64,000 nucleotides of DNA from Flagellatimonas centrodinii. Lineage in GTDB: Bacteria; Pseudomonadota; Gammaproteobacteria; Nevskiales; Nevskiaceae. The position numbers and the translations under genes were made by a program. The notes below the pieces were generated by a model. That model saw nothing but the letters and a program-made list of their open reading frames with translations. It had not been told where the DNA came from and did no database searches. Position 1 is the stretch's first letter. Every line of letters starts with the position of its first letter. Shown one piece after another: positions 15,386 through 56,909 of the stretch. The DNA lies in contig NZ_CP092104.1 of the NCBI RefSeq assembly GCF_016918765.2, positions 744,001 to 808,000 on the forward strand, in the 5' to 3' direction.

Positions 15386-16423
15386 TCAGCCCGCCGCCAA
15401 CTGGCGCGTGGTGGTGACCAGCGCGTCAAGCTTTGCCTGCGCGGCACCGCTGGACAGCGCCTCGCGGGCGCGGGCGATGCCGGCGGCCACATCCGCCACC
15501 ACACCGGCGGCGTACAGCGAGGCGCCGGCATTGAGCAGCACGATGTCACGGGCGGGGCCGGGGCGGTCGGCCAGCACCTCCCGGATGCGGCTGCAGGATT
15601 CCGCCGCATCCGCCACCGCCAGCTGACGCGTGGCGGCCATCGGCAGGCCAAAATCTTCGGGGTGCAGGTCGTACTCATGCACCGCCCCGTCGCGCAGCTC
15701 GCCGACCCGGGTACTGGCCCCCAGGGTCAGCTCGTCCAGCCCGTCACGGCCATAGACCACCAGCGCGCGAGTGGCGCCCAGCGCCTGCAGCACCCGGATC
15801 TGGATGCCAACCAGGTCTTCATGGAACACGCCCATGAGGATGTTGGGTGCGCCCGCCGGGTTGGTCAGCGGCCCGAGAATGTTGAACAGGGTCTTCACCC
15901 CCATCTCGCGGCGCACCGGCGCCACCGCCTTCATCGCCGGGTGATGATTGGGGGCAAACATGAAGCCGATGCCGACGCTGCCGAGACAGTGGGCCACCTG
16001 CTCCGGCGACAGGTCGATGACCACCCCCAGCTGCTCCAGCACGTCGGCACTGCCGGACTTCGATGACACCCCGCGATTGCCATGCTTGGCCACCCGCGCA
16101 CCGCAGGCCGCCACCACGAACATCGAGCAGGTGGAGATGTTGAAGCTGTGGCTGCCGTCGCCACCGGTGCCGACAATGTCCAGCAACGGACCGCCGTCGG
16201 CCGGCACCGACACCTTGCGCGAGAACTCGCGCATCACGCTGGCCGCAGCCGCGATCTCGCCCACCGTTTCCTTCTTCACCCGCAGGCCGGTGAGCAGTGC
16301 GGCCATCATCACCGGCGACACCTCACCCTGCATGATGGCGCGCATCAGGCTCACCATCTCGTCATGAAAGATTTCGCGATGTTCGATGACCCGTTGCAGG
16401 GCAGCCTGGGGGGTGATGGACAT
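15386..16423 (-). CDS. trpD: Anthranilate phosphoribosyltransferase
   Basis: A 345-residue TrpD that joins anthranilate to PRPP. The PRPP-binding GTGGDG, the [18 protein letters not shown] stretch and the downstream [11 protein letters not shown] segment are diagnostic. Length is normal. It overlaps trpG by one base and is followed one base later by trpC, forming trpGDC. Confidence 0.97.
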
Positions 16424-21287: not shown

Positions 21288-21491
21288 ATGATTCATTTGC
21301 TCGCTACAGCAGTGGCGGTGGCCGGCCTGTTCCTGTTCCCGGTATCGCCCCTTCTCACACTGCTCTGCTTTGCAGCCAGCGTCCCAATTGCCAAGGCCGC
21401 CAACCGCAGTAACGTCGACCTCGACGGCCTTTTCGGTTGGATGATCCTCGGTGCCGCGCTAGTCGGGCTAGGCGCCCTGTTCTTGGGCTAG
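21288..21491 (+). CDS. Small two-pass membrane protein
   Basis: 67 residues with hydrophobic segments at about 4-34 and 47-66 separated by a polar loop (AKAANRSNVDLDG). The last 24 bases overlap the convergent 3' end of the giant virion gene. It follows a 58-base gap containing an imperfect hairpin without a T-tract. Function unknown; position suggests lysis or superinfection exclusion. Confidence 0.45.
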   Translation: MIHLLATAVAVAGLFLFPVSPLLTLLCFAASVPIAKAANRSNVDLDGLFGWMILGAALVGLGALFLG

Positions 21492-24400: not shown

Positions 24401-27400
24401 TCTGCACGATGTCCGTGTCCACCTCAAGCCCCAGCAGCTCGCCGAGCGCCAGTGCGTAGGCCCGCGGCAGCGCATTGCGCCCGCTGGCCTCGGCCGCCAC
24501 CACCGGCACCACACGCGGCCGCTTGCCGCCCAGGGCGGTGCGCAGGGCTTGCAGCCCGGGCATGGTGAGAGTGTCAGCCACCACCCGTGCCGCCGCTTCC
24601 GGGTCTCCCGCCTTGGCCGCTGTGTAGTCCGCGTGGTCGCGCATCGCCCCCAGCTTCGCCATACGGTGGATCGGCGGGAACCCGGCCGACGGTGACCGCT
24701 GCGAACCCACCCGACCGGCCTGCGCTGCCAGCGGCTGCCGCGAACGATCGACACCCGCGCCACGGCCCATGCTCATGGTCCGCCGCAGCGAAGCCTGCAC
24801 CATGCCCACGATCTCGGCATCGCTCAGTTTCACGCGGAACCCGATGCTGAACAGGAAGCGCCGCACCGCCTGAATCACGCGCTTCATCAAGGGCAGCCGC
24901 AGCCCGTCCGCCTGCTCGCCAACGTGCGCGATCACCTCCCGCACAAAGACATCACCGCCGACCTCAAGGTGGGGATAGTTGAGCTCCACCTGTGCCCAGG
25001 CGGCGCTGACCAACTGGTTGCCCATTCGATGAAGGGCCCGCACCTCATTCTGCAACCGGGCGTAGGCCCCAGTGCCCAGCATCCGTTCGAGTCCGTAGTG
25101 CTCGCCGATCTCGTGCAGCAGGATCCGCGGCGCCTCACCCGGCTCGATCTCGTCACCGATGATGTAAGCGGTTTCTGTCGATGGCACATAGAGCCCCATC
25201 GTCCGACCGGGGAAACGACGATTCATTGCTTCCAGCGTGTCGGCCGGCAACTCCTGGCGCGACGCAACGATCTGCAGAATGCCGTCGTCGATCAGGCGCT
25301 GAACGCCGGCGTGACCGAAGGCGCTGTCCAGTTCGCCTCGGACGCCTTCAACTGTCGTTGGCACGGCTGGGCGTCGGCTCAACTCGGCCCTGTTCATGCC
25401 GCGACCGGGGCGCTCCGTGGCAGCACGAGCGTCCGTCTCCGATTCGGCGACCGAAGATGGCTTTTCGATGACTACCATGCGGGCATTGGCGCCCGTTGTT
25501 ACTGGAAGGCTGGGGTCTTGGAAGGTGCCCTCCGCCAACTTCTCGCTGGTGCCTTCAACTGATTCAAGCCAATCCCGGAAATCCCGCGCCTGCTGATTGT
25601 CACGAAAGAAGGCGCCCTCGCCCATGATCGCGACGATCCGCCCGCCTGGCCTCAACAGGTCATAGGCATGACGGACATGCTTCATGTCTCGGCCGTCGCT
25701 GAACGGCGGGTTCATGATGATGCGGTCGTATCCGCTCCAGACACCCCGCTGGTCTACGCCCTTAACCTCACTCCGGTCATAAAGTCCGAGCCGCTGACCA
25801 GATTCGTCTTCCAGCCGCACACGCTGCGAACCGATGCCACCAGCGCCACGCAATATCCCACGCGTGCCATCCGGCGCCTCGAAGATGTCGCCATAGGTGA
25901 AGAACGAGCGCGGCTTAAGGTTCAGAAAGTCATCGACGTCGGCGAAGTGATAACCCTTCGCCTCCAGAAGATCACGGCGGCGACCAGACATTTCAATCAC
26001 GTCCGGCTCAGCACCGGCCGCTCGGATACGGTCAGCCAGATGGCCCATGCCCGCCGACGGTTCCAGCACTGCCATATCCGGCGTGACATCAGCCGCTTCG
26101 ATCATCGCATCGGCGACGCTGGCTGGGGTCGGGAAGAAATCGAGGCCGTCGTTGGCTCGGCCGATCATCGACCGCTCCAGTTCTTTGATTCGGTCGCCTT
26201 CCTCCGCCTGCTCGCGCAGGTTGATGAACTCGCGCAGCGCACTCCGGTACTCTGCCGGCGTCTCGATGCCCATGCGGGCCAAAGCCTTCAGCCGGTCGTG
26301 TGCCGTGACGAACTGCCACGGCGCCTGGACGTCCTTGCGTCCTTTCAGTTTCTCCACGATCTCGGAAGCGGCGCCCGCCGTAATGGTGATCCGCTTGTCC
26401 CCGTCGCCCTTCCAGATGCCGCGGGCCTGGGCCTCGCCCGGGCTCAGTACGATGGCGTTCTTTCCTCGACCCAGCGGCAGCACGATGGCCCTGCCGACGA
26501 GACCGCTACGCTTTATTGCGCGCTTAGCGTCCTCCTTATTGGAGAACTGTGCTCTATCGCCGTCCTTAAATGCGAAGGGCGCCGCAGCGAGAAAATTCTT
26601 CTTGGCAAACTCGGTGTATTCAGCCGTCACATCGTCGGCAACCTTCGCCAGCTTGGCCGCCATCTGCTTCAGGCCGTCAACGTCTTCGAGCTGACGCGCC
26701 AGGGTGGCGAGGTCAGACCGGAACATGGTGAAGCTGGGGAATTGTGCGAATTCCACCGTGTCGCTCGTTGGCGGCTCACCCTTACGCTTCATCTGCTCGG
26801 CATAGCTGTCGTACTTGGAGCGCAGTTCATCGCTCTTGGCAGTGACGATGGCGTTGTTAAGAAGCTCCACCTGAGACTTGGCACGCACGCGGTCGAGAAA
26901 CTTTACGCGTCCCTCACTGATTGCGGCACCGATGTTTCGCATTGTCTTTGCGAGGGCCTTGTCGGCGCGGGCCGCTGTCTCGGCGCTGTTCGCCATCCGG
27001 GCACGGCGCGCGGTGTTGACCTTGCGTTCCGCAGCCAGGGCCTCATCGGCACGCTCTTCCAATCGGTCGGCCATTTCGGTCAGCCGCTCGGTGGCAGTCT
27101 GCGAACGGTCATCCTCGAATGCATCACGCCGCTGCTGCACCGCCTCGTTGGCTTGGGTAGCGTCCCCGTTGGCGAGCTTCACGAACGCTTCAGCCGTGGC
27201 CCGATCTCGGAACTGAAAGCCCGGCACCGCTCCGCGGCCACGGAACGCCGAGTAGTAGCCGCCCATGCGCTTCGCGCCGGCGTTGAGGGTGTTGTAGTCC
27301 TCACGCGGAACGCGCTCAGCGAGTTGCACGACGAAGAGGTCAAAGCCCTTCTGCGAGTGCTTTGTCTCGATGACCTGGCCATCAACCTTTTGCCCGGCGA

Positions 27401-30400
27401 CTCGAACAGCACGCTGCTCGTCCTTCTGCCCCTTGCGCTTGCTGCGGCTGTCCTCAGCCATCAGGCGGTCAAACTCGGATCTTTGCTCGTGGGTGAGCGC
27501 AAGGCGGGCATCGAGCAGGGTCTTGCCATCGCTCATCTGAACCCTGATGAAGGCTCGGAAATCATCAATGGTCTTGGGGTTCTTGACAGCCTCCATGCGC
27601 TCGGCACGACGGCCTGCGGCCTCTATGCGAGCCTGTTTCACTTCAGCGGCGTACTCGGCAAGAGATTCGTCGGTCTGCCCTTCAACCAGCTCCTTCAGCG
27701 CCTTGGCCTTGGCCTCTTCGTACTGCTTCTGCTGACCCATCATGTAGCTGTTCGGGCCGTAGTCCTTGCCAAGGGCAAAGCGGCGAACCATCGCCTCTTG
27801 CAGTCGCTCGACAATTTCCGACTTCTTCAAGCTGTTGAGACGGTTGAAGGTGTTCGCCCCGCCGGCCAGCGCGATCAGCTCGCCCTTGGTCTTTGCAGAG
27901 AGCGCGGCCTTCACCTCGTCGGCACGCTCGTTGACGATCCGGAATGCCTCCCGGTACTGCTCGAGCGTAGCTGTGCCGTCGGCCAGCGCATCCAACGTCG
28001 CGTCGACTTGCTCCAGAAGACCGCGATCCTGCGCCGGGGCTGGGGGATCTGACTGGTACTGAGACAGCTTGATGCCCGCGCCTTGGCGAGCGGCATCCAT
28101 GGCCGCGCCCCATGCTGCGTCGCCGCTGGTGCCTTCCGGGATAACAGCGTACTGGCGCACAAGCGCCAGCAAGTCATCCCAGCTCTGCGCGCTGACCTGG
28201 ATGTCCCATCCTGCGCCGGCTTTCTTATCGGGGAAGTGCCGGAGTGCAACATCCTGCCCATCGTCCACGATTCGCGCCCAATCACCTGCTGCAGTCTGTC
28301 CGAGACGACGTGACACCAGCGCTCGATTCTCCTGCTGCTCGCGGGGGACCTCATCCAGCCATTCAACAAATGCTCGCGATAGCGCCGCCTGTCGGCTCGC
28401 CATACTCTCGAATCCGGGCTTGTCCGCGGGCATTTCAGGTCGCTTCATCACTTCCGCAACCCCAGCATCGAAACCGGCGCGGGTCAGCAGATTGTCGCCC
28501 TTCTCCAGCACCCAGACCGTTCCATATGGGCCGGCGCGGTAGTTTCGCAGCGACCATCCAGCATCCTGAGCTGCGCGCAAGCGCGCCCATTGCTGCTCCG
28601 CTCGTCGCTTGGACTCGATCTCACGCTGAGATGGATTTGCGGTAACAACTTTCGCAGCGAACTGAATGGCGTTGACGTCGCCCTGATGCCACCACGGCGA
28701 TGAATCTGCCCGACTGCGATACGCGGCTGCCTTGAGCGCGCCTGCGGGCGTCGTCACCGCCGAGCGCGGTACTGACCGGCGAGCATTGATGTTCCGGTCT
28801 GACGTGGCTTGACGCGCCTCACCAGCCCCACCGTCAATCGCACTACCTGGCCGTTGCGTCTCTGCAGCCACTGGCGAACTCTCTGCTGCACCGGTAGTCT
28901 GATCACTGGATTCGGCGTTCTGGTCGCTGGGAGGCAGCGGCACAGCGCGGGCGGGGCCGCCAGTCGTCCCCTCGTCCGCTGCCGAATCCACCTCATACGC
29001 GGTCATCAACCAGGTCTTCTGGTTGCCATCCCAGTCGAGCCGGACAACCGCTCGGCCTGCGTCATCCGCCAGGACGATTCGGTTATTGCTGCGCGACCGG
29101 ATCGCCAATCTGTCCACGAAGCCTTGCAGATCTTCCAGCACCTCAGGGTGCTTGCGCGAGATCTTCGCGATGCCGAACCCATCTTCATAGTCGCGTTCGG
29201 GCGAACCCTCTTCGCCCCAGACCAGGTCGATGTCGCCTACCTGCTCGTGCTGGAGTGCAGCCAGGGCCTCACCAGTGCGTTCACGCATCAAGCGATCAAC
29301 AGCGCCGCCAGCGTTGTGGCGGTACTCCGAGAAGATGGGGCCAAATGCCCCGCGCGCTGCTGGCGCCTCAAGCGATTGCTGTCGCTGCTGATTCGAGAAC
29401 AGGCCGCCATCAACATCTGCTGGCACATTTTCAGTGCCATTGCGTCGAGTGTCCTGTGACCGCGCGCGGTCAGCCAGCGCCTGCGCGGTCTCGTTGCGCC
29501 CGAAGAAATCGTTCTGGGTTGGGTTCGCGGGCGGCGCGGAGTCAGGTGGCGCCTGCTCGGCCGTCAGCGAAAAGCCGGGCTCGCCTACTTCGCCGGCTTC
29601 GTCGGGCTCGGCCGGGCCTGCTTGCGCTCCATCCGGCCGCGGTAGATCCGGGCCGCTTTCAGCGCCTGCTGCCCGCGGGTCAGCTTCTTGGGTTCGTCGG
29701 CCATCTAGCCACTCCTGCAAGGCGGCCTCCAGGGCCGCGTCATCATCGTACTGGATTGCCAGGCGTTCGGCCTCGGCATCATCGATCGCTGCCACCGCAT
29801 CCATCATCGCCACGATGCGCGGCGCCACATCCGTCTCCGCATCGGCAGCGGCTCCGGCCAGCTCGAACGGGTCAGCATCAGGGATGCCGCGTTGCGCCAT
29901 CTCCTCCCGTTCGCCGTCGGCCCAGTCCAACATCGCCTCGACATGCCGGCGCTCAGCCGCCGACATCGCCTCACCAGCCATCGCCTTGCGCACCGCCTCG
30001 CGGGTAGCAGCGCCATTCGAATTGCCGGGCAGCCGGGCATCCCGCTGCACAGACTGGAACCATGGAGCAAAGGGCACCCATGGCGTGCGTCCGGTCACCT
30101 CACCATCGCGCGCACCGCGGATAATGCTGCCACCGATCTCCGCCCAGCCTGCCTCCGGTGCCATGGCGCGCAGATCAGACTGCACCGACTCATCGCTCAG
30201 CCGGTCATCCTGCAGGCTCTTCGGGCTGCGTTGATCCACCGTCGAACTGGGGAACTCGCTCACCAGCGGCAACACGTCCTCCGCCGGCGCATTGATGCGG
30301 ATCACGCTCACCGGCTCGCCGGCATCCACCTTCGCCAGCCACTGGTGATGCCCGTCGATCACCCGGTTGTCAGCCGACACCAGAATCGCGCGGTCGGTGC

Positions 30401-32321
30401 CAGCAAAGGTCTTCGCCTTCGCCACCTTCTCCGGGCTGAACTCCATCTGCGACGGCTGCAGCGTCAGCGGATCAACGGCCTGCGACGGCTCGGCCGTGAC
30501 GCCGCGCCCCTTGAGGAAGTTCACCAGCGCGCCGCGGTGCTCCGATTTCACCTGCGGCATCACATCCCGCGGCACATTCAGCGAGGTTTCGGGGTCGAAG
30601 GCCTGCCAGGTTTCTTGGTCCGCGGCACCTGCCGCCACGGGTGATTCGGCCGGGGTCGATGGGTCGGTTGGGTTGGCATTGGGGTCATCCTTCAGCGCCA
30701 GCACCCACTGACGGGGCCCCAGCTTCTGCACTTCGTATCGGTCTGCGTTCGCGCCCAGCTTTTTGCGCTGCGCATTCAATCCCGGCATCGAACGGAACGG
30801 GCCGTTCGTCTTCGGGTCCAGAATCTGCGCCGGCAGGTCGCCAGCCATCGCCGCGGCGCGCCGCGCTTCTTCTGCCGCGCGTTCCTGATAGAGCTGGTCA
30901 GCACGGGCCACCGCATCCAGCGTCCGGGCTTCACCCTCGAAGGTGCGCGCGGGGTCGACACCGGCAGCCGCTTCAATCGGCGCGCGGGTCAAGGCCAGGC
31001 GGGCCACACCCTTCGAGATCGGACCCGCGTTGGGGTCGATGCCATTCGCCGCCAGGGTCTGCATCGCCGCTTCGCGCCGCGCCACCTCGGAGTCGCGCTC
31101 CGCGTAGAGCTGTTGAGCCCGCTCGGCGTTCTCCATGCTCTGGCGCTGGGCTTCGAACTCGGCGGCAGGGTTGCCATCGCCCGGCACGATGGTCGGCGCC
31201 GGCAAGGCGCCAGCGATCGATGGTGCGGCAGGGGCCGCGTCTTCCGGCGGCGCTTCACCGTCCTGGCGGGTCAGCCGGCCCGCGCCATACAAGCCGCCAC
31301 CCAGAACGCCCCCGACAGCACCACCGACGGCAGCAGATTCCAGCACGCCCTCGCCCAGTGCCTGCGATGGGTCGGCCCGCTGTTGCACGCCCAGGTTGGC
31401 GGCAAAGGCCTCGCCGCCTTCCTGCACGGCTTCCTCCACCGCCTCCTTGCCGACGGCTGCCGGCAGGCCGGTGTTGAGGCTGCGAGTGAACACTTGCGCC
31501 TCGAAGGGCGCGGTCAGCCGCGATATGGCGCCACTGATCGGGCCGCCCACCGCTGCTGCGATCTGGCCAGCCTCCACGCCAAGACGGCGCTTGGCCTCTT
31601 CGGGCCCGACCTGCTTGGCCAGGGCCACGTATTCCGGGTTGGCCTGCCACGCTTCGTCCGGCAGGGCTGCGGCACGCTGCTGCGCCTCCTGCCCGGAGAA
31701 TCCGGCGCCCATGGCCACGTTGGCGCCGACCAGGTTGCGCTGCGCCGCCGTTCGGCCAGCTTCCTGCGCAGCCTTTGCGCCGGCACCACCAGCCCGCGCC
31801 GCGGCTGCTGTCCGGCCGGCAGTTCCAACCGAGCCCGCGCCGAGGGTCGCAATGATCGGCACCTGCTCGGCGAGAAACTGACTCATCAGCACCGGGTCGG
31901 TCACCACCTTGCCTGCAGCGGCCAGTGGCCCGCGGTCCATCGCTTCGGCAAGCTCCTGTCGGCGACCCTGTAGCGTCGGCGATGCCGCAGCATCCAGCCC
32001 CTCGTTGATGCGGGCAATCCCGCCAGAGATCCCGCCGTTGTCAACGCCGGGGCCGCCGAGGGCGCGATCCAGTGCCCGCTGCGCGGGCCGCACGACGTTC
32101 TGGTCGAGCGCACCACCAGTGGCGAGGTTCGGCAGCTCGGCCAGGCCGCCGGCGAGGTTGACCGCGCCCTGCACAACGCCAACGCCCAGATCCTTCAGCG
32201 TGCCCCCCACCCCGCGGCCGGCAGCAGCAGGCTCGGCTTCAGCCGGCCCGCCATATTCCGCCCATGGCCCACCACCGCCGGGTGGCGCGCCACCGCTACC
32301 GTAGCGCTCCCATGGCTTCAC
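21468..32321 (-). CDS. Giant polyvalent virion protein (methyltransferase, metalloprotease-like, phosphoribosyltransferase, LPD-type domains)
   Basis: A 3617-residue protein from a GTG coupled to the preceding gene. Recognisable parts in order: Gly/Ala-rich N-terminus with glycine-zipper-like helices (1-360); ParB-like nuclease motif (DGHHQWLAK) near 655; long coiled-coil regions; a SAM-dependent methyltransferase at about 2065-2240 (VLEPSAGMGHLADRI, then IIMNPPF); an HExxH metalloprotease motif (LLHEIGEHYG) near 2400; a phosphoribosyltransferase-like domain at about 2590-2720 (LIVDDTQAMGGTLANL); a PLFRLG element close to the PLxRFG signature; and a C-terminal LPD38-like membrane-interacting region (from about 3100). 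Such proteins ride in the capsid and enter the cell with DNA, protecting it from host defence (as DarB does). Individual activities here are inferred from motifs. Confidence 0.8.
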   Translation of the reverse strand: MKPWERYGSGGAPPGGGGPWAEYGGPAEAEPAAAGRGVGGTLKDLGVGVVQGAVNLAGGLAELPNLATGGALDQNVVRPAQRALDRALGGPGVDNGGISGGIARINEGLDAAASPTLQGRRQELAEAMDRGPLAAAGKVVTDPVLMSQFLAEQVPIIATLGAGSVGTAGRTAAAARAGGAGAKAAQEAGRTAAQRNLVGANVAMGAGFSGQEAQQRAAALPDEAWQANPEYVALAKQVGPEEAKRRLGVEAGQIAAAVGGPISGAISRLTAPFEAQVFTRSLNTGLPAAVGKEAVEEAVQEGGEAFAANLGVQQRADPSQALGEGVLESAAVGGAVGGVLGGGLYGAGRLTRQDGEAPPEDAAPAAPSIAGALPAPTIVPGDGNPAAEFEAQRQSMENAERAQQLYAERDSEVARREAAMQTLAANGIDPNAGPISKGVARLALTRAPIEAAAGVDPARTFEGEARTLDAVARADQLYQERAAEEARRAAAMAGDLPAQILDPKTNGPFRSMPGLNAQRKKLGANADRYEVQKLGPRQWVLALKDDPNANPTDPSTPAESPVAAGAADQETWQAFDPETSLNVPRDVMPQVKSEHRGALVNFLKGRGVTAEPSQAVDPLTLQPSQMEFSPEKVAKAKTFAGTDRAILVSADNRVIDGHHQWLAKVDAGEPVSVIRINAPAEDVLPLVSEFPSSTVDQRSPKSLQDDRLSDESVQSDLRAMAPEAGWAEIGGSIIRGARDGEVTGRTPWVPFAPWFQSVQRDARLPGNSNGAATREAVRKAMAGEAMSAAERRHVEAMLDWADGEREEMAQRGIPDADPFELAGAAADAETDVAPRIVAMMDAVAAIDDAEAERLAIQYDDDAALEAALQEWLDGRRTQEADPRAAGAESGPDLPRPDGAQAGPAEPDEAGEVGEPGFSLTAEQAPPDSAPPANPTQNDFFGRNETAQALADRARSQDTRRNGTENVPADVDGGLFSNQQRQQSLEAPAARGAFGPIFSEYRHNAGGAVDRLMRERTGEALAALQHEQVGDIDLVWGEEGSPERDYEDGFGIAKISRKHPEVLEDLQGFVDRLAIRSRSNNRIVLADDAGRAVVRLDWDGNQKTWLMTAYEVDSAADEGTTGGPARAVPLPPSDQNAESSDQTTGAAESSPVAAETQRPGSAIDGGAGEARQATSDRNINARRSVPRSAVTTPAGALKAAAYRSRADSSPWWHQGDVNAIQFAAKVVTANPSQREIESKRRAEQQWARLRAAQDAGWSLRNYRAGPYGTVWVLEKGDNLLTRAGFDAGVAEVMKRPEMPADKPGFESMASRQAALSRAFVEWLDEVPREQQENRALVSRRLGQTAAGDWARIVDDGQDVALRHFPDKKAGAGWDIQVSAQSWDDLLALVRQYAVIPEGTSGDAAWGAAMDAARQGAGIKLSQYQSDPPAPAQDRGLLEQVDATLDALADGTATLEQYREAFRIVNERADEVKAALSAKTKGELIALAGGANTFNRLNSLKKSEIVERLQEAMVRRFALGKDYGPNSYMMGQQKQYEEAKAKALKELVEGQTDESLAEYAAEVKQARIEAAGRRAERMEAVKNPKTIDDFRAFIRVQMSDGKTLLDARLALTHEQRSEFDRLMAEDSRSKRKGQKDEQRAVRVAGQKVDGQVIETKHSQKGFDLFVVQLAERVPREDYNTLNAGAKRMGGYYSAFRGRGAVPGFQFRDRATAEAFVKLANGDATQANEAVQQRRDAFEDDRSQTATERLTEMADRLEERADEALAAERKVNTARRARMANSAETAARADKALAKTMRNIGAAISEGRVKFLDRVRAKSQVELLNNAIVTAKSDELRSKYDSYAEQMKRKGEPPTSDTVEFAQFPSFTMFRSDLATLARQLEDVDGLKQMAAKLAKVADDVTAEYTEFAKKNFLAAAPFAFKDGDRAQFSNKEDAKRAIKRSGLVGRAIVLPLGRGKNAIVLSPGEAQARGIWKGDGDKRITITAGAASEIVEKLKGRKDVQAPWQFVTAHDRLKALARMGIETPAEYRSALREFINLREQAEEGDRIKELERSMIGRANDGLDFFPTPASVADAMIEAADVTPDMAVLEPSAGMGHLADRIRAAGAEPDVIEMSGRRRDLLEAKGYHFADVDDFLNLKPRSFFTYGDIFEAPDGTRGILRGAGGIGSQRVRLEDESGQRLGLYDRSEVKGVDQRGVWSGYDRIIMNPPFSDGRDMKHVRHAYDLLRPGGRIVAIMGEGAFFRDNQQARDFRDWLESVEGTSEKLAEGTFQDPSLPVTTGANARMVVIEKPSSVAESETDARAATERPGRGMNRAELSRRPAVPTTVEGVRGELDSAFGHAGVQRLIDDGILQIVASRQELPADTLEAMNRRFPGRTMGLYVPSTETAYIIGDEIEPGEAPRILLHEIGEHYGLERMLGTGAYARLQNEVRALHRMGNQLVSAAWAQVELNYPHLEVGGDVFVREVIAHVGEQADGLRLPLMKRVIQAVRRFLFSIGFRVKLSDAEIVGMVQASLRRTMSMGRGAGVDRSRQPLAAQAGRVGSQRSPSAGFPPIHRMAKLGAMRDHADYTAAKAGDPEAAARVVADTLTMPGLQALRTALGGKRPRVVPVVAAEASGRNALPRAYALALGELLGLEVDTDIVQTVRAFHTNANAYQRIASQPVFDGRVEPGADYLIVDDTQAMGGTLANLRGHIEAAGGRVVLASALTGHETTADIALRPAMRESLIAKHGQALDDYLNETFGFGIDALTQGEAGHLRAAPSIDVIRDRLTEARRSLGLTEDPGSPEGEPPLFRLGETAEQREALRKAGLGLSTKTAGERFTDGLSDRWKAFADGALKRAEEGIFNRFAPIRDAERERGPVEARDSAYVAARLSTGTSSTVTALLMFGHGEWRNGIIQKKADTRGLLDSLEPVRGNLDAWAAWMVAKRAEYLRRQGKENNLTDADIAALKAVATDAGFDEATLEQVARDVRDFNTSVLRLAEGAGLLTPEQVKAFARDRYYIPFFREDEEGDPMRPFLRRGLSHQAAGIKALKGGRQALTDPLANMLGNVSRLVDAALKNNAAAKAVTNLPKHFEELGQDADKSRAVRVMLGGEPRYFKALDPALMRAMAGFAPDRWPDGLAPFRTAKRLLTSGVTADPAFIIRNFTRDVLYSWAVSKDRFTPLVDSIKGVRSSLRRDEDTQAVMFAGASFLGGSQFGGDFDSAADSLRRAMARKGFPKSAGETLAIGPRFWQMYRELGEAVENANRSAIFKAVNARGGSAAEAIFESKDLMDYSLSGSWTAVRLLADVVPFFNARLQGLYKLGRSLDQRQLYYAGTAIMAASLALLLANHDDERWEALTDEDKDLFWHVFVGDTHYRIPKPFEIGVMFGTVPERLAMQMLGQDAKLGERAIWTLVETFALDPTPQLVQPAMEVMFNFDTFRDAPIEGMADEGKLPQARFDSRTSPTMVAVGQAFETSPKKLEHLWNAYLGTLGGYALSAVDALVAWGSPGERPDMTLREVPVLGSFARSSQPVATRYSREMYEMLREAEQVYRTVREYQRQGEIEAAQSLIEDNQALLAVRPGLNRVSRRMREIRANMDAIRRDPGMPGAEKRRRLENLESMLYAASRRAVTLAQEQGA

Positions 32322-49699: not shown

Positions 49700-49716
49700 G
49701 CAGTGCCCCATAACTC
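49700..49716 (-). promoter_or_regulatory. Late-unit motif copy D
   Basis: GAGTTATGGGGCACTGC on the - strand in the gap between terminase large subunit and portal, overlapping the terminase stop codon. It shares 13 bases with copy E allowing one C/T difference. Confidence 0.5.
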
Positions 49717-51199
49717 AGCCGGCCATCGCGCTGCCGCGGCGCCGTTTGGCCTTCAATCGATCCCGCCACGATTCCGAAATGCCTCGTTCGCGCTTCGTTG
49801 TGGCGTGTCGGATCATCATCAGGAGATAGCGCGTAGCACTCAGCAGATCGTCCATCTCCTTGACAACCTTTCCCTCGTCGCGGTGATAAAGAAGGAACTC
49901 TTCCCACCAGTCATTGAGGTGGGCGGCCACTTTGAGGCGACCTGTCAACATTCTGTCCAGCATTTCGGCAATACCGGCCTCTACGCTGACACGACTGCCC
50001 TTCGACTCGCCTTCGTCGCCGGTCTCCGGGAACTGGGCGTGCTCATGGAGCATGTTCACGCCCTGGGCGCGGAATTGCTGTGCGAGCTGCAGCCCAGATC
50101 CCTTGTCGTGCTGATGCCCGTCCGATGGCCAGGCCATCGGAATCCATGCCCCGCGCGCCTTGATCGCAGCCGCATGCGCAATTACGCCGACCAGTTCCCC
50201 CTCAGCGGCCTTCGCATCGCTCTTGCGGTAGGCGTCGTAAATGTAGAGGGTGTCGGCATCCGGGTCGTAGGCGCCCCAGACTGCGGCAGTCGGGTGGTCC
50301 CAGCCGAAGTCCATGCCAGCCAGTCGCCTGAAGTGGTCAGGGAATGCCATGGCGTCGTATTCCACGGCCTCCTTGGGTAACGGGAAAATACGCCCTGACC
50401 CCATCATGGGCACACCATTCACCCGGGCCTCACGCTCATGCGCTGGGTAGCTATTGATAATTCGCTGTCGCTCTTCGGGTGAGTAGTGCTCGGCGTCGTG
50501 AATTGTCATGGACGTCACATGCCGGTCCGCACTCTTCTCCTTCAGGAACCGCCGGGTCACTGCGGACATCCCCAAGAGCGGGGTATAGGTCAGCATGACG
50601 ATTCCGCCGGTAGCGTTCGTCCGCGTCATGCCCTCGCTGTAGATATCCTCCGGCGGCTCCTCGTCGAACCACACGATGTGAAGGGTATCGCCCTGCCACT
50701 TCTCCCGGCCCTTCTCGTAGGACTTGAACTGAAGGACTGACCAGCCGCCGGAGATGTGCTTCACCATCACCGTATCCATGGCGTCTGCCACGCCACGGGA
50801 CATCGTGATCTTCTTCGGGTCGAGGCAAGACAGTGGGATTGAGCCAGTGCCAAGCTGCCCCTTCCGCCCCATCAGAACGCGCTGGGGATTGTCACGGGTG
50901 CTTTCCGACGTCACCCCAGACGCCCAGGCTGCTACCGGATGGTCAAAAACCCTTCCGTTCCACGCCGCTGGGTAATGGCCGGTCAGGTGCATGGCCATCT
51001 CGAACCCTGCAGAGACCGTCTTACCTTGCTGGTTGCCGGCCTTGAGCATGCGCTCTCGATAGAGCGCGCCAGCCTCGTGAAAGACGACCTGCTTTGGATA
51101 GGGGGCGTAGCGCTGGAGCTTGGTCGTCTTCAGCCTGCGGACTTGCTCGCGCCGCACCCGGATGCGCTGAGCGCGCAGTTCAGCCGCTGTCGCCGCCAT
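49715..51199 (-). CDS. Terminase large subunit
   Basis: 494 residues. ATPase domain with Walker A AGNQQGKT (54-61) and Walker B HIVWFDEEPP (about 174-183); the RNase H-like nuclease domain starts at MDFGWDHPTAAVWGAYD (Asp297), with later acidic residues in the C-terminal part. It cuts concatemers and pumps DNA into the procapsid. The ATG at 51199 has GGAG upstream and overlaps the small-subunit gene by 20 bases. Confidence 0.93.
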   Translation of the reverse strand: MAATAAELRAQRIRVRREQVRRLKTTKLQRYAPYPKQVVFHEAGALYRERMLKAGNQQGKTVSAGFEMAMHLTGHYPAAWNGRVFDHPVAAWASGVTSESTRDNPQRVLMGRKGQLGTGSIPLSCLDPKKITMSRGVADAMDTVMVKHISGGWSVLQFKSYEKGREKWQGDTLHIVWFDEEPPEDIYSEGMTRTNATGGIVMLTYTPLLGMSAVTRRFLKEKSADRHVTSMTIHDAEHYSPEERQRIINSYPAHEREARVNGVPMMGSGRIFPLPKEAVEYDAMAFPDHFRRLAGMDFGWDHPTAAVWGAYDPDADTLYIYDAYRKSDAKAAEGELVGVIAHAAAIKARGAWIPMAWPSDGHQHDKGSGLQLAQQFRAQGVNMLHEHAQFPETGDEGESKGSRVSVEAGIAEMLDRMLTGRLKVAAHLNDWWEEFLLYHRDEGKVVKEMDDLLSATRYLLMMIRHATTKRERGISESWRDRLKAKRRRGSAMAG

Positions 51200-51902
51200 T
51201 GCCGCGCTCCCGGTTCAGCTCAGCCGTGATCGCCGCCTCCTTGGCCGCCAGGGCGTCATCGGACAGGCCTGCCAAATCGTCGTCATCGCGACGGTCGCCG
51301 GCGTCAAGGTTCCAAGCGGCCCGCTCCAACGTCTGAAAATTCTTCATGGCCATGCTCATGTCCTTGAGCGCTGACGTTCGGGCATTCAGCGAGACGGCCC
51401 TGTGCATGATGTCCCGTCGCTTGCCGCTTTGGTCACCCTCGGTGAAGACGTCAATTTCCTCGGCAATCTCAGCGCGGTGCACCGTCGACTGCCGCAGTTC
51501 GGCAAACAGATCAAGCGCCAGATCCCGAGCGCCACGGATGTCAGACCGGTGCTGGCGGACCACCTCAACGGGGCCTTGGGCGGCAGCCGCCACAATTTCA
51601 TCGTCTGACGGCGCCGAATGGTTCGAGTTTTCCGCGCGCGGGTGCGAACTTCGCACCATTTCCGCATCGGCTCGTACCAATTCCTCCTTCACACGCTTCC
51701 GCACCTTCTCGGCGAGGTCGCGTTCCCAGCCGTCCGACTTCGCTTTCTTGCGGATTACCGCCTCGGAGCACTTGAATTGTCGGGCCAACTGCTGGTTTGA
51801 CAGTGTGTTGGTGCGCCACAGGGCGTGCAGGGCATCCCAGTCCACCCTGGTGCGTGGACCACGGCGGCTTTCATTCGCGTTCTTGCCCTTCTTGGCGGTC
51901 AT
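51180..51902 (-). CDS. Terminase small subunit
   Basis: 240 residues from the ATG at 51902 (GGAG upstream). The N-terminal DNA-binding helix-turn-helix (VDWDALHALWRT, SNQQLARQFKCSEAVIRKKA, SDGWERDLAEK) resembles terminase small subunits; the middle is helical for oligomerisation and the C-terminus is acidic. It would recognise the packaging site and regulate the large subunit. The open frame upstream to 52112 belongs to other genes. Confidence 0.75.
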   Translation of the reverse strand: MTAKKGKNANESRRGPRTRVDWDALHALWRTNTLSNQQLARQFKCSEAVIRKKAKSDGWERDLAEKVRKRVKEELVRADAEMVRSSHPRAENSNHSAPSDDEIVAAAAQGPVEVVRQHRSDIRGARDLALDLFAELRQSTVHRAEIAEEIDVFTEGDQSGKRRDIMHRAVSLNARTSALKDMSMAMKNFQTLERAAWNLDAGDRRDDDDLAGLSDDALAAKEAAITAELNRERGNGGDSG

Positions 51903-52048
51903 ACCCACTCCGTCGGGCCGCGCTGGCGTTCCCGCTTGTGCGTCAGCCGCTTCGAGAAGCGCCCGGGCGGCTGCCCATGTCGGTTGCCGGGCCGGCGGGT
52001 CCAATACTCGAACCCCGCCGGCTTGGTGCCGCGCCTGGTGCGGCTCAT
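51899..52048 (-). CDS. Conserved small basic phage protein
   Basis: 49 residues: MSRTRRGTKPAGFEYWTRRP, then GNRHGQPP and a basic helix. The opening phrase is widely conserved in small phage proteins encoded next to terminase. Both ends are coupled by 4-base ATGA overlaps with the genes on either side, which makes translation very likely despite the size. Function unknown. Confidence 0.72.
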   Translation of the reverse strand: MSRTRRGTKPAGFEYWTRRPGNRHGQPPGRFSKRLTHKRERQRGPTEWV

Positions 52049-52278
52049 CCCGCCAACTCCGTCGCGGCAACGAAGCACAACCCCACCGCGTGCGCTTTCG
52101 TGAACGGCTCATCGCCGAAACACCGGTAGTCCGGCTGCCCGTCGGGCGCCTCGGTGATCAGCACGCACCGAACCGCCGGCATGTCGCCGCACTCGATCAG
52201 GTTTGCGGCCTGGCGCAGGGCCTCGGGCACGTCGGCGACCTTGAAGCGCGGCAGCGCCGATAGAACGGGCTTTGTCAT
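52045..52278 (-). CDS. Small phage protein, unknown
   Basis: 77 residues from the ATG at 52278. Pattern LRQAANLIECGDMPAVRCVLITEAPDG-like (helix followed by two strands; VLITEAPDGQPDYRCFGDEP) occurs in uncharacterised phage proteins near terminase genes. It is the first gene after motif copy E and so may open the late transcript. Confidence 0.55.
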   Translation of the reverse strand: MTKPVLSALPRFKVADVPEALRQAANLIECGDMPAVRCVLITEAPDGQPDYRCFGDEPFTKAHAVGLCFVAATELAG

Positions 52279-52325: not shown

Positions 52326-52715
52326 CTACCGCAGCGCCCGGTAATACCCACACACCCAGTCCCGCACCGTCATCACATGCACGCGCTTGCCGTAGAGCTG
52401 GTACAGCGCCTCAGCGATCTCGGCATAGGTGTATTCGTTGGCGCGCATGACCTTTGCGTCCTCAACCATCTCGATTGGATACTTCGCCTGGTGCCGCTGG
52501 CGCTTCCCCCGGCGCCGATAGGGGGAGATCTCCCGCAGATCCAGCGCGAGCTGCGCCGCCTTGGGTGCGGCGGGATGCTCAGCCATCGACCGGCGCCTGG
52601 CCACGTAGCGACTGACCGCCATTTGCGTCCGCTCGCTCAGCATCACCAGCACGTCCGGCTGCACCGCAATCTCGGCGAGAGCATCCGCCACGGCATCAGG
52701 CACCTTGATCGGCAT
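52326..52715 (-). CDS. Candidate late-gene regulator (HTH protein, Q position)
   Basis: 129 residues from the ATG at 52715 with a GGAGG Shine-Dalgarno; the frame is open to 52841 inside the nuclease gene. The C-terminal 55 residues (KYPIEMVEDAKVMRANEYTYAEIAEALYQLY..., KRVHVMTVRDWVCGYYRAL) look like a resolvase/sigma-like helix-turn-helix. It sits at the end of the early block, immediately before motif copy E, where lambdoid phages carry Q. Regulatory role inferred from HTH and position. Confidence 0.5.
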   Translation of the reverse strand: MPIKVPDAVADALAEIAVQPDVLVMLSERTQMAVSRYVARRRSMAEHPAAPKAAQLALDLREISPYRRRGKRQRHQAKYPIEMVEDAKVMRANEYTYAEIAEALYQLYGKRVHVMTVRDWVCGYYRALR

Positions 52716-53100
52716 CGCGCCCCTCCCACCGGCCGCCCAGGTAGCGCAGTAGCGCTTCCCGGGCCTCGTCCCAGCCACGGCACACCGCCACCGCATAGCC
52801 CTCGGCATCCAGACTGGCCAGCCACGTTGCTTGCGCCTCACTCACGCAACCGCCCTTGCGCCGCTTCATCTCGATGAACAGGCCATGCAGTGGTCCACGT
52901 GGAACGGGCAGCATCAGATCCGGCACGCCAGCGCGCACACCCTCCGCCCTCAGTCGGCCGGCAGTCGCCTTGTTGCGGTGGCCACCGTTTGGGATCGCGA
53001 ACAACATCGACAGCCCCGGCATAGAAGGCGCCTGCAGCGCCGCCCACTGCACCAGCGCAGCCTGTTCGTCATGCTCGGTCGGTAACGGGCTCACTGACAC
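52696..53100 (-). CDS. VRR-NUC domain nuclease
   Basis: 134 residues forming a minimal PD-(D/E)xK nuclease of the VRR-NUC type: early Glu10-Glu12 (TEHDEQAALVQW), catalytic GVPDLML (Asp61) and IEMKRRKG (Glu77, Lys79). VRR-NUC enzymes cleave DNA junctions or flaps, and phage versions act as Holliday-junction-type resolvases. Overlaps the Ref-like gene by 10 bases. Confidence 0.85.
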   Translation of the reverse strand: MSVSPLPTEHDEQAALVQWAALQAPSMPGLSMLFAIPNGGHRNKATAGRLRAEGVRAGVPDLMLPVPRGPLHGLFIEMKRRKGGCVSEAQATWLASLDAEGYAVAVCRGWDEAREALLRYLGGRWEGRDADQGA

Positions 53101-53459
53101 GGCCGCACCCCCGTCAGCCGGCCATGGCGGGCGATCAGGGCATCCTGACGCGCCAGCAGCTCAGCGTCGGTCCCGAACTGCTCGCGGAACGCCGCCGGCT
53201 CCAGCCCGAACGATGCCCCGTATAGCGCGCGCATCTCCGTCACCGTCCAGCCGCCATCCGGCCGGCCGACGTGGTGCCAGGGGCACAGGGCCGCGGTCTG
53301 CTGGTGCCCAAGGCGCCGGCCGCCTTCTGTCAGGTGGTGCGCGTCTGGCCAGCGCCCAGTCACCCCCAACATCAGGCACGCCACGCAGCCGATGTCCTTG
53401 AGCGCGCGAATGCGCTCAACATCGGCCCGCGTCATCGCGCCTGTGCTGGTGCCGAGCAT
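53091..53459 (-). CDS. Ref-like HNH nuclease
   Basis: 122 residues with a zinc-supported HNH core: CVACLMLG, HHLTEGGRRLGH, LCPWHHVGRPDG. This matches the Ref family of phage P1, a RecA-dependent endonuclease that boosts recombination. Two possible starts, ATG 53459 and ATG 53435 (MTRADVERIRAL); neither has a strong Shine-Dalgarno. Next to the VRR-NUC gene. Confidence 0.75.
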   Translation of the reverse strand: MLGTSTGAMTRADVERIRALKDIGCVACLMLGVTGRWPDAHHLTEGGRRLGHQQTAALCPWHHVGRPDGGWTVTEMRALYGASFGLEPAAFREQFGTDAELLARQDALIARHGRLTGVRPCQ

Positions 53460-53465
53460 GTCGGC

Positions 53466-53738
53466 TCAGAACGTCGTCGGCGCCGCCACGGCGCGGGTCA
53501 GGCACATCAGGCCCTTCTGCAGATCGGTCCGGCCTTCCGCGAGCCATCGCGCCGGCGAGGTCGTCACAGGGTGAACTGACGGCCCGCCGGGTTGCTGGAT
53601 ATGCCGATCCACGCGATCCACCAGATCGCGGAGCCGCTCGCCCTCGGCCTTGACCTCGTTGATCAGTGCCACCTCATCCGCTGTCAGGCTGCGGTATCCC
53701 GTCACCTTCGGGCCTTGCTTCTCTGCGCTCTCCATCAT
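53466..53738 (-). CDS. Acb2-type anti-CBASS cyclic-oligonucleotide sponge
   Basis: 90 residues from the ATG at 53738 (GGAG Shine-Dalgarno; an adjacent ATG at 53735 is possible). The pattern VTGYRSLTADEVALINEVKAEG with the C-terminal RWLAEGRTDLQKGLMCLTRA and AAPTTF is that of the Acb2/Tad1-domain family. Acb2 proteins form hexamers that bind cyclic di- and trinucleotides and so block CBASS signalling (established for Pseudomonas phages). Placed among early leftward genes, so it would be made soon after infection. The insert PGGPSVHPVTTSP before the last helix is a local variation. Confidence 0.75.
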   Translation of the reverse strand: MMESAEKQGPKVTGYRSLTADEVALINEVKAEGERLRDLVDRVDRHIQQPGGPSVHPVTTSPARWLAEGRTDLQKGLMCLTRAVAAPTTF

Positions 53739-53783
53739 CACTCTCCTGCAGTCGCACGCCAGCCGGGCGCGCACGGTCACCGG

Positions 53784-54368
53784 CTATGCCGCGGCGGGCA
53801 TCAGTTCGGCCATGTCCTGAATCGTCGGCGCATCCAGATCCGGCCAGTACGTCCGCGCGATGTAGTCCGCCATGCGCCGGTACAGCTCGTGGAACTCGCC
53901 CTCCTCCATTTCGGAAAAGGCCAGCGACCGCGGCACCCGCACCGGGATGTCGGTCTGCCCCATCAGATTCGCGATCAGCACCAGCGCCGGCCTCGCGGAC
54001 TCGCCGAGGACGCGCACAACGTGGTCCGTCACCTGCGCCCACAGCCCACCGGCGCGTACCATCACCGTCTCGCAGCCGATGTCGCCCTCGATCTGGATTC
54101 GCTTGATCACCGCATGCCCGTCCAGGCCCGCGAAATCGTCGATCTGGTCCGCGCACATCAGGCCCAGGGCGTGAACAAGGCGGTTGAACTGGGGGTTGCG
54201 GGGTTTGCTCAGGTCGGCCGCCAGCACATCGCCGACACGCCAGCCCCGGCGGCGGATCATTTCGACCGACACATGGTCCGCCGGCACCAGCGCGCCCTTA
54301 ATCAGCCGCAGGTGCAGCCGCGGCCTTTTACGGCGGCGCGTCAGCGTGGCCTTCGCGCCGGCCGTCAT
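53784..54368 (-). CDS. DUF1367-like phage protein
   Basis: 194 residues. The combination GWRVGDVLAADLSKPRNPQFNRLVHAL near the middle (read as two signatures: VGDVLAADLSKPRN and FNRLVHALGLM) and the C-terminal SLAFSEMEEGEFHELYRRM resembles the DUF1367 family found in nin-type regions of lambdoid phages. Biochemical role unknown. Overlaps the next upstream gene by 4 bases. Confidence 0.62.
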   Translation of the reverse strand: MTAGAKATLTRRRKRPRLHLRLIKGALVPADHVSVEMIRRRGWRVGDVLAADLSKPRNPQFNRLVHALGLMCADQIDDFAGLDGHAVIKRIQIEGDIGCETVMVRAGGLWAQVTDHVVRVLGESARPALVLIANLMGQTDIPVRVPRSLAFSEMEEGEFHELYRRMADYIARTYWPDLDAPTIQDMAELMPAAA

Positions 54369-54716: not shown

Positions 54717-55045
54717 CGGGCCCTCCACAGCACTTTCGGGCTCAAGTTGCTGGTCTTGGCTGGCGCATACCCCGCCTTCGCGATCACCCCCGCCCGGGCC
54801 GCACGCTGCAGCACCCCACCCCATGCGCGACCGTCCGGCGGCGCCGGCACCTGGCCGCGGGCTGCCAGCACCACGTCCTCGGCCAGAAACTCGCCCAGGT
54901 GGCCCTGTACCCAGCCGCGCAGGAACGTCAGCGCCAGATCCGACCAGCTCGGCGAGTCCCGGTCTGCGCGATCGATAGCCCGAGCGATGCCGACATCCCG
55001 GCGGTCTCGGGCCGCATTCCAGTCCAGGGCGAGCTGTGCGTTCAT
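54713..55045 (-). CDS. Conserved phage protein (winged-helix-like C-terminus), unknown
   Basis: 110 residues. N-terminal LDWNAARDRRDVGIARAIDRAD and C-terminal RAWGGVLQRAARAGVIAKAG, SPKVLWRAR form a pattern common in phage early regions; the C-terminal half resembles a winged helix. Function not known. ATGA-type overlaps at both ends. Confidence 0.62.
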   Translation of the reverse strand: MNAQLALDWNAARDRRDVGIARAIDRADRDSPSWSDLALTFLRGWVQGHLGEFLAEDVVLAARGQVPAPPDGRAWGGVLQRAARAGVIAKAGYAPAKTSNLSPKVLWRAR

Positions 55046-55662
55046 GCGCGGCGCTCCAGGGCCGGCATTGCATCGCCGATACGGCTGCAGTCGGTTATCC
55101 GCACCACCGATCCGGCCGCGCCGCCGGAGGAGCGGACACGCTCACACGCGGCTCGGTCGCCAACAAACGCCAGACCGATGGCGTCCATCTGGCCGTTCAC
55201 CACCGCCGAGTAGGCCGCCGGCGGAGATCGCCGCAACCGGTCGTAGGCCGTCACAAACTCCTTGCCGATCCACGTCATCTCATCGGACTCGGCCTCGGCA
55301 ATCCGCATCCAGCCGCCCATCGCTTCGACCGTTGCGTGAATCAGCCAGTCATCGAACACAATCGGCCGATACTGGCCGCACCGCTTGACCGCGTTGTGGA
55401 CCTTCGACCAGGCCGCGTCGGCGGCATCGCTGTTCGTGCCCTCCAGCACACGGATGACGTCAGCGGGTTTCGGTGGATGCTGGCCCACCGCCGGATCGGA
55501 GACGTGAGCAGCCAAGGCCCGTTCCACCAGCGGCAGCTCGAATCGTTCGAGCGCCTTGAACCACAGCCCCCGCGCCGCCGGTGTCAGCGGTTTTTGCTGG
55601 GCGTACAGCCCCATCACCGCATCCAGCGCCGAAGTGAACCGGTCGAAATCGTCGTGCGTCAT
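55042..55662 (-). CDS. DUF6475-like phage protein, lambda P position
   Basis: 206 residues. The N-terminal helical domain (MGLYAQQKPLTPAARGLWFKAL, PLVERALAAHVSDPAVGQHP, PKPADVIRVLEG) is typical of a family encoded directly after phage replication initiators. Position matches the helicase-loader gene of lambdoid phages, so a replication role is plausible but unproven. Coupled to the DUF1376 gene. Confidence 0.6.
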   Translation of the reverse strand: MTHDDFDRFTSALDAVMGLYAQQKPLTPAARGLWFKALERFELPLVERALAAHVSDPAVGQHPPKPADVIRVLEGTNSDAADAAWSKVHNAVKRCGQYRPIVFDDWLIHATVEAMGGWMRIAEAESDEMTWIGKEFVTAYDRLRRSPPAAYSAVVNGQMDAIGLAFVGDRAACERVRSSGGAAGSVVRITDCSRIGDAMPALERRA

Positions 55663-56441
55663 GTCGAAAATCCCAGGAGGCGCTTGGCCTCCGCGTTGGC
55701 TACCGCGTTGGCCTCATCCGTCCCGGGCCGCAGTTGGCGCACGTTGCCGCCGCCCCGCCAGTCCCAGTCCGCGTTAAACCCCTGCCACCCGCGCTCAGCG
55801 CAGATCCGCACAGCCTCAGCGGCGGTGATCCCGGCTCGCGCTGCTTCGCGCTCCATACCCGCCCAGGCGGTTTCGGTCAGCGGCGCCCGCTTTCGCTCCC
55901 GCACCGCCAGCCAGTCACGAGCCGTCGCTTCGGGCACACCCAGCTCGGCGAGGAAGGCCTGGCCCAGCGTTGCGCGCGCGCGCTTGCGCGCCTTACCCCC
56001 GTCAGGGGGTTTCTGGTGTCTGGTGTCTGGTGTCTGGTGAGCATTGCCACCGCAATGCGTTCGCATAGCGTCCGCATCGTCACTGCCGGATGCGTTCGCA
56101 TTGCCATCGCATTGCGACCGCTGTGCGCTCCACCGTGCGTTCGCACTGCGCTTCGCCTTCGACCGCTTCTCCCTGTACCGCTCGATTTCCGCATCGCACC
56201 GACGTTTGCGCCATCCGTCCGGGCAAAGCTCGAAGAACTCGCCGAGCACGTAGGCCACAGCCTCTCGCTCAGCCTTCGTTACGGCGCGCGCCAGCTTGCA
56301 GCAGTCCGCCACCTTTTCAGGCAGCGGCTTCTCTCTGTCGTAGTAGACATCCAACAATCGGTTGTAGGCACCGTCCTCCACCATCGACAGGTGGGCGGTG
56401 TTCTTCATGTAATCGCCGATGTGACGCTCGTAATAGTTCAT
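55659..56441 (-). CDS. DUF1376 replication protein (lambda O position)
   Basis: 260 residues. The first 100 or so (NYYERHIGDYMKNTAHLSM, EDGAYNRLLDVYYDREKPLP) are the DUF1376/YdaU domain of phage replication initiation proteins. Residues about 105-145 are a low-complexity linker whose DNA contains repeated inverted motifs and a heptanucleotide repeat. The C-terminal part (about 150-250) is helical (ERKRAPLTETAWAGMEREA). This split layout resembles lambda O, whose gene contains the origin. Confidence 0.72.
   Translation of the reverse strand: MNYYERHIGDYMKNTAHLSMVEDGAYNRLLDVYYDREKPLPEKVADCCKLARAVTKAEREAVAYVLGEFFELCPDGWRKRRCDAEIERYREKRSKAKRSANARWSAQRSQCDGNANASGSDDADAMRTHCGGNAHQTPDTRHQKPPDGGKARKRARATLGQAFLAELGVPEATARDWLAVRERKRAPLTETAWAGMEREAARAGITAAEAVRICAERGWQGFNADWDWRGGGNVRQLRPGTDEANAVANAEAKRLLGFST
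56012..56039. repeat. Heptanucleotide repeat (TCTGGTG)x4 inside the DUF1376 gene
   Basis: Four perfect tandem copies of TCTGGTG. Seven is not a multiple of three, so gain or loss of one unit would shift the reading frame of the replication gene at about residue 135. Beside it are CG-alternating stretches. Confidence 0.85.
56056..56145. other. Iteron-like cluster, candidate phage replication origin
   Basis: TGCGTTCGCA occurs three times (56056-56065, 56091-56100, 56136-56145), two of them within a longer shared ATGCGTTCGCAT; related copies such as AGCGTCCGCA (56067-56076) lie between. The repeats sit in the linker-coding part of the DUF1376 gene, as lambda's iterons sit in O. Origin function is inference. 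Confidence 0.42.
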
Positions 56442-56560
56442 GAGCCGACCACCCGCACCCGGATTGCGTACTCCCGCGGCTTCCCGCGCGAGTGCTCGCG
56501 CAGATTCGCCGCGCTCTGCAAACGGACTGGGAGCTGCGCTGTGAACTCAGGTGGCCCCAT
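56438..56560 (-). CDS. Small protein between cII-like and replication genes
   Basis: 40 residues beginning MGPPEFTAQLPVRLQSAANL and ending REYAIRVRVVGS. Both its start and stop overlap neighbouring genes in ATGA pattern, which is strong evidence of translational coupling. Unknown function. Confidence 0.55.
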   Translation of the reverse strand: MGPPEFTAQLPVRLQSAANLREHSRGKPREYAIRVRVVGS

Positions 56561-56880
56561 CAGTCCACATCCTCAAACAACCGTGTCACCGTCGCCTGAT
56601 CCGCCATCGCCTCGGTGACCAACGTCACCATCGCGTCGAACACCGGCGAGCGCACACACTTCGCGGTGGTGGGCACCGCCTTCATGCCAAGGGCCGCCAG
56701 TAGGGTGGCGAACTGGGTCACTGTCAGCCGTGCCTGGTCGGAGCGCAGTCGGCTCACCGTGGAATCGTCCACCTCCAGCACCGCGGCCAGGTTCTTCAGC
56801 GGCATCGCTGCAAGGCGTTGCGAAATCAGACGCCGTGATTTGATGGCGGTTGCCTCACCGACGGGTGACAGTCCACTCAT
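56560..56880 (-). CDS. CII-family transcriptional regulator
   Basis: 106 residues from the ATG at 56880 with a GGAGGT Shine-Dalgarno. The core (SRRLISQRLAAMPLKNLAAV, LEVDDSTVSRLRSDQ, FATLLAALGMK) matches phage CII activators, which drive repressor and integrase transcription during lysogeny choice. Position after cro and a terminator is as in lambda. The C-terminal extension (about residues 70-106) is longer than lambda CII's. Confidence 0.75.
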   Translation of the reverse strand: MSGLSPVGEATAIKSRRLISQRLAAMPLKNLAAVLEVDDSTVSRLRSDQARLTVTQFATLLAALGMKAVPTTAKCVRSPVFDAMVTLVTEAMADQATVTRLFEDVD

Positions 56881-56909
56881 GGCGCACCTCCGCACACATT
56901 TCGAGCATC

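Follow-up and report, generated by a model that had tools for sequence, protein, structure and literature searches.

The window, by which we mean the whole stretch of 64,000 nucleotides analysed here, carries a small gene that encodes a new Acb2 family member whose length, fold and core residues are all ordinary. Our analyses make it very likely that the product is an Acb2-type sponge, which would be expressed early and, as a hexamer, sequester the CBASS second messenger of the host; we infer this mechanism from family membership and from the conserved contact residues. With it, a family present in many phages and prophages gains a divergent and well-supported Acb2, while present knowledge of anti-CBASS is left unchanged.

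53466 to 53738, minus strand: acb2-like gene, 90 amino acids, predicted Acb2-type cyclic oligonucleotide sponge (profile, sequence and predicted fold)

The first-pass annotation, made from the sequence alone, had read this protein as an Acb2, and that assignment was borne out by a Pfam profile, by a sequence match to the PaP2 protein and by the predicted fold. The HMM search that it had proposed against the Acb2/Tad1 families was performed and gave 52.3 bits for the Acb2/Tad1 hairpin profile PF24729, against a cut-off of 27 (E 6.4e-14). PHROG 717 was matched with an E value of 2.8e-17, and the same PHROG was matched by all ten members of a small alignment that included PaP2 p26, T4 Vs.4, and the window protein. 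A phmmer search against PDB sequences found p26, the crystallised Acb2 of PaP2, with an E value of 2.1e-13 (residues 7-90 against 3-93); two p26 entries stood at about 2e-13, and the three remaining rows at 0.67 or higher. In the whole 3.6 Mb genome, the window protein was the single match to PF24729, while 14 control genomes yielded none; the relatives search, which covered 100 genomes with the own genome among them, had matches in five. By tblastn, 68 records of the phage collection were matched, every one of them below 60% identity. The NCBIfam search returned one match, below its cut-off (13.2 bits versus 30), and none was obtained with the PADLOC library of defence proteins. The family match is far beyond chance.

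A structure predicted from the window sequence by itself was of low quality (mean pLDDT 67.1) and was set aside. In an AlphaFold run made with a 109-row alignment of the window protein and related loci, the mean pLDDT was 87.6, and two long antiparallel helices were present at residues 20-47 and 62-85. The model has the fold of an Acb2 protomer, except that the short N-terminal helix of Acb2 was not assigned as a helix. The first six Foldseek ranks were Acb2 chains with a TM of about 0.75, the only rows under an E value of 0.001, and ranks 7-9 were T4 Vs.4 with cGAMP. VIA-align, which warns that helical bundles below about Z 13 may reflect a common arrangement only, scored two Acb2 entries at Z 9.2 and 9.1 and Vs.4 at Z 8.6, little above the next row, an unrelated helical chain (Z 7.9, rmsd 6.1); for this reason, the sequence match outweighs the structural match in support of the Acb2 claim.

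To the Acb2 of Pseudomonas phage PaP2 (p26; PDB 8h2j and 8h2x), the window protein is 35% identical, of the same length class and of the same predicted fold, and the pattern GYR...N..K...RW...T...M...R...P is common to both. Identity to the T4 Acb2 (Vs.4; PDB 7uq2) is 20%. For the comparison with the wider family, 175 loci, 172 of them with a tblastn hit, were reduced to 170 and, after trimming, to 153 distinct rows; L130 (too short) and L078 (without the motif) were left out. Most loci had been found through patterns over the QHxKIxGYR, EIDLMN, and RW..GKT stretches, with the best 80 per scan retained, so the following counts reflect conservation partly by selection: Lys30, Met78, Arg82, and Pro87 are each kept in all 153 rows, Tyr15 in 151, and Arg64 and Thr71 in 135 each. 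The residues invariant across the 109-row alignment are all present in the window protein.

The coordinates given at first pass are correct, and the detail absent there is the strand, which is minus. Read in that direction from the ATG at 53738 to the stop at 53466, the frame encodes the 90 amino acids with the motifs that had been quoted, and a plus-strand reading of the same interval is interrupted by a stop. The sequence AGGAG lies four bases 5' of a paired ATG ATG at the gene start. An alternative in-frame start, GTG at 53780, lies upstream and would give 104 residues; the start at 53738 was preferred because a Met stands nine residues ahead of the GYR motif in 124 of the 153 family rows.

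A Pro/Ser/His insert before the last helix had been proposed as a special feature, possibly affecting ligand choice. We rejected this feature, as the loop is of ordinary length: it counts 17 residues between the His46 and Arg64 columns, compared with 24 in PaP2 and 21 in T4. Loop length over the 153 rows has a median of 12 and a range of 5-48, with 92 loops shorter, three equal (the window protein included) and 58 longer. Since both Acb2 proteins with a crystal structure have longer loops, a role of such an insert in ligand choice is unsupported, and a false lead is removed.

We take PaP2 Tyr11 and Lys26 to be cyclic-dinucleotide contacts, and PaP2 Arg67, the equivalent of Arg64 in the window protein, to be a trinucleotide contact. 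The cyclic-dinucleotide contact positions (T4 Tyr8 and Thr68, PaP2 Tyr11 and Lys26) are present as Tyr15, Lys30, and Thr71, so that the window protein keeps the counterparts of Vs.4 Tyr8, Thr68, and the helix-1 Lys. According to two papers (PMC12657218, PMC12657230), the T4 exchange Y8A disrupts cyclic-dinucleotide binding, T68M lowers binding affinity, and Phe82 stacks on the ligand. In the family alignment, T4 Tyr8, Thr68, and Phe82 map to Tyr15, Thr71, and Ala85; the last is a difference from Vs.4 itself, as the Phe82 position holds Ala in 147 of the 153 rows.

In the alignment, the real oddities of the window protein are not in the hairpin loop, where PaP2 has 24 residues and the window protein 17, but at Gly9 and Ala86, where PaP2 has His5 and Gln89. 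The first position is His in 142 of the 153 rows, and the second is Gln in 91, Lys in 46, and Arg in 12 (149 rows together); Gly at the first and Ala at the second occur in no other row. These are two concrete positions that may bear on ligand choice, and the substitutions count against the CBASS-sponge explanation. It is possible, although unlikely, that the protein combines the Acb2 fold with a shifted ligand choice, for trinucleotides or another signal, through Gly9 and Ala86 near the binding end. The uniqueness of both residues in the family speaks for this, as does the varying ligand spectrum of Acb2 homologues reported in a review (PMC12043709). Against it, the window protein retains Tyr, Lys, Thr, and Arg at the core positions, ligand contact of Gly9 and Ala86 is putative, and the first position is not strict, given that 11 of the 153 rows are without His there. 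That the retuned end would confer a preference for a signal outside the known Acb2 range is more doubtful still; if true, such an Acb2 could spare guards based on decoy nucleotides, such as Panoptes, while blocking CBASS.

The genes around the acb2-like gene, all in the same direction, look like those of a temperate phage and were identified as follows:

49715 to 51199, minus strand: terminase large subunit (PHROG 2, E 5.5e-30)
51180 to 52112, minus strand: terminase small subunit (PHROG 1206, E 5.7e-42)
52696 to 53100, minus strand: VRR-NUC nuclease gene, further downstream (PF08774, E 1.5e-9; PHROG 824 of unknown function, E 9.3e-49)
53091 to 53459, minus strand: RecA-dependent (Ref-like) nuclease, downstream neighbour (PF16786, E 1.2e-16; PHROG 2321, E 5e-5)
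53784 to 54368, minus strand: NinB/Orf-like recombination mediator (DUF1367), upstream neighbour (PHROG 319, E 4.3e-24; PF07105 over cut-off)
55042 to 55662, minus strand: DUF6475 gene, upstream (PF20081, E 2.3e-13)
55659 to 56441, minus strand: DUF1376 primosomal/replication gene, upstream (PF07120, E 8.6e-29; PHROG 6451, E 3.4e-43)
56560 to 56895, minus strand: CII-like regulator, upstream (PHROG 725, E 9.7e-16)

A weakly matched HTH frame also lies downstream and is listed between the VRR-NUC and terminase genes. The acb2-like gene thus looks like part of the replication/recombination module of a prophage. Its position in an early operon, as had been claimed, is likely: it stands in a run of minus-strand genes between those for the NinB/Orf-like protein and the RecA-dependent nuclease, downstream of the CII-like regulator. 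Such a position would be consistent with delayed-early expression. It also suits a statement in the review (PMC12043709), where Acb2 is reported to be active upon induction rather than during maintained lysogeny.

For the sponge reading, the following sequence of events may be proposed. The 90-residue protein is predicted to consist of an N-terminal segment and a hairpin of two helices and, by analogy with the family, would assemble into a compact hexamer. There, cyclic dinucleotides would be held by N- and C-terminal segments arranged head to head; separate sites would probably accommodate cyclic trinucleotides. Made early after infection or prophage induction, as its position suggests, the sponge would sequester the CBASS second messenger uncut, the effector would stay off, and the phage could complete its cycle.

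The opposing defence was searched for in the host. The own genome had no match to the SMODS model (which matched four of the 14 control genomes, over cut-off in two), to mCpol (three of 14, none over cut-off) or to ThsB-TIR (one of 14), and these absences count against the CBASS-sponge explanation. The SAVED model matched neither the own genome nor any control genome, and a Tad2-like gene (PF11195, matched in one of the 14 controls) was not found in the own genome. In the relatives search, SMODS was present at E 0.001 or better in eight of the 100 genomes, four of them over cut-off, and in none of the three genomes of the host's own genus. The window protein may matter in other hosts. It is highly unlikely that the gene is a decayed or non-functional remnant: the alteration of two conserved positions and the failure of three models to find a signalling-defence enzyme in the host would fit such a state, but the frame is full-length with AGGAG ahead of its start, none of the residues invariant in 109 rows is missing, and the replication, nuclease, and terminase genes nearby likewise have open frames.

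That the protein is a relative of Tad1 sequestering TIR-made signals of Thoeris is scarcely credible, although the Pfam model spans the hairpin of both Acb2 and Tad1, since the additional N-terminal beta-sheet that Tad1 carries according to the review (PMC12043709) is absent (the AlphaFold model contains no strand, and residue 14 of 90 is the first that the profile match covers), no PDB sequence other than p26 was matched under E 0.001, and the best nine Foldseek rows are Acb2 and Vs.4. Lacking a Tad1-like sheet, the window protein is of the Acb2 type.

Beyond the immediate neighbourhood, the prophage also contains a large polyvalent protein, which had been put forward together with the acb2-like gene as a sign of a phage adapted to hosts with signalling defences. 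The protein itself is there (21468-32321, minus strand, 3617 residues); its LPD38 domain scores 143.8 bits, and a PBECR1 nuclease-like domain passes the cut-off of 27.6 with 28.4 bits. Nothing in our analyses connects it with signalling defences. An IMG/VR record with the identical gene maps, by its coordinates, from window position 16423 to about 12.9 kb beyond the window end. There, a 396-residue frame that is presumably a tyrosine integrase adjoins frames that look LysR- and MetE-like. Also beyond the window end, in the same prophage, a 679-residue frame (L178:2307-4346, plus strand) resembles, in our estimation, a C5 cytosine methyltransferase.

Among the phage collection, the major capsid protein was closest to that of Acidovorax phage AP1 (65.4%), followed by the phiR18/KPP25 group (50.1%); against one unclassified phage record, it was 56.0% identical over 78% of the query. 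Over the 18 kb of the 55.7 kb of AP1 that were compared, the portal (53%) and capsid (65%) were matched and TerS weakly (28%), and the terminase large subunit, the replication neighbours and acb2 were unmatched, which indicates that different early genes accompany the structural module in different phages. Ten window neighbours were then searched by tblastn in 178 loci with limited flanks. The RecA-dependent nuclease was matched in six loci, NinB, portal and major capsid protein in four each, VRR-NUC in two, and TerS and TerL in one each, while the HTH, DUF1376, and DUF6475 genes had no match within these flanks. With so few matches, the gene order around the window acb2 is not a general feature. 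In four other loci (L112, L113, L161, and L179, the last being the same place as L013), a portal or capsid gene related to that of the window is close to an acb2-like gene. The L179 gene (5255-5560, minus strand) comes from a genome of the host's family; its product, 101 residues long, is a divergent protein with the Acb2/Tad1 hairpin (64.8 bits), and the frame just upstream of it is presumably a terminase large subunit. Relatives of both the portal and the capsid of the window's phage are present at L179.

Acb2-like proteins from metagenome-assembled genomes of Methylophaga (L016; the same protein as L002) and Elioraea (L017) are 54-56% identical to the window protein. L002 and L003 share with it the stretch WLAE.RTDLQKG, preceded, as in the window protein, by TTNP in L002 and TTSP in L003. 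Within flanks of up to 6 kb, L002, L003, L016, and L017 had no match to any of the ten window neighbours. In a tree of 114 rows, built on few columns and with 58 of its 111 inner branches open, L003, L002, and L017 were nearest to the window protein; the tree supports no close clade around it, since the smallest starred set containing it comprised 57 rows.

Some of the other loci have arrangements of their own. On the Klebsiella oxytoca plasmid CP056499.1 (L184:3537-4240), a Tad2-like gene (PF11195, 90.9 bits) and the start of acb2 (PF24729, 55.6 bits) have four bases in common, an arrangement suggestive of two sponges coupled as a pair. In eight of the 15 plasmid rows listed, CP056499.1 included, the annotation at the acb2 match is a DUF2829 protein, and at L141 a relative of the Tad2-like protein of L184 ends at acb2. 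In ten of 14 Xenorhabdus loci (L018-L020, L023-L027, L031, and L042), acb2 shares about 20 bases with the end of the frame upstream; this upstream frame starts with a hydrophobic stretch and resembles what we take to be an Rz spanin.
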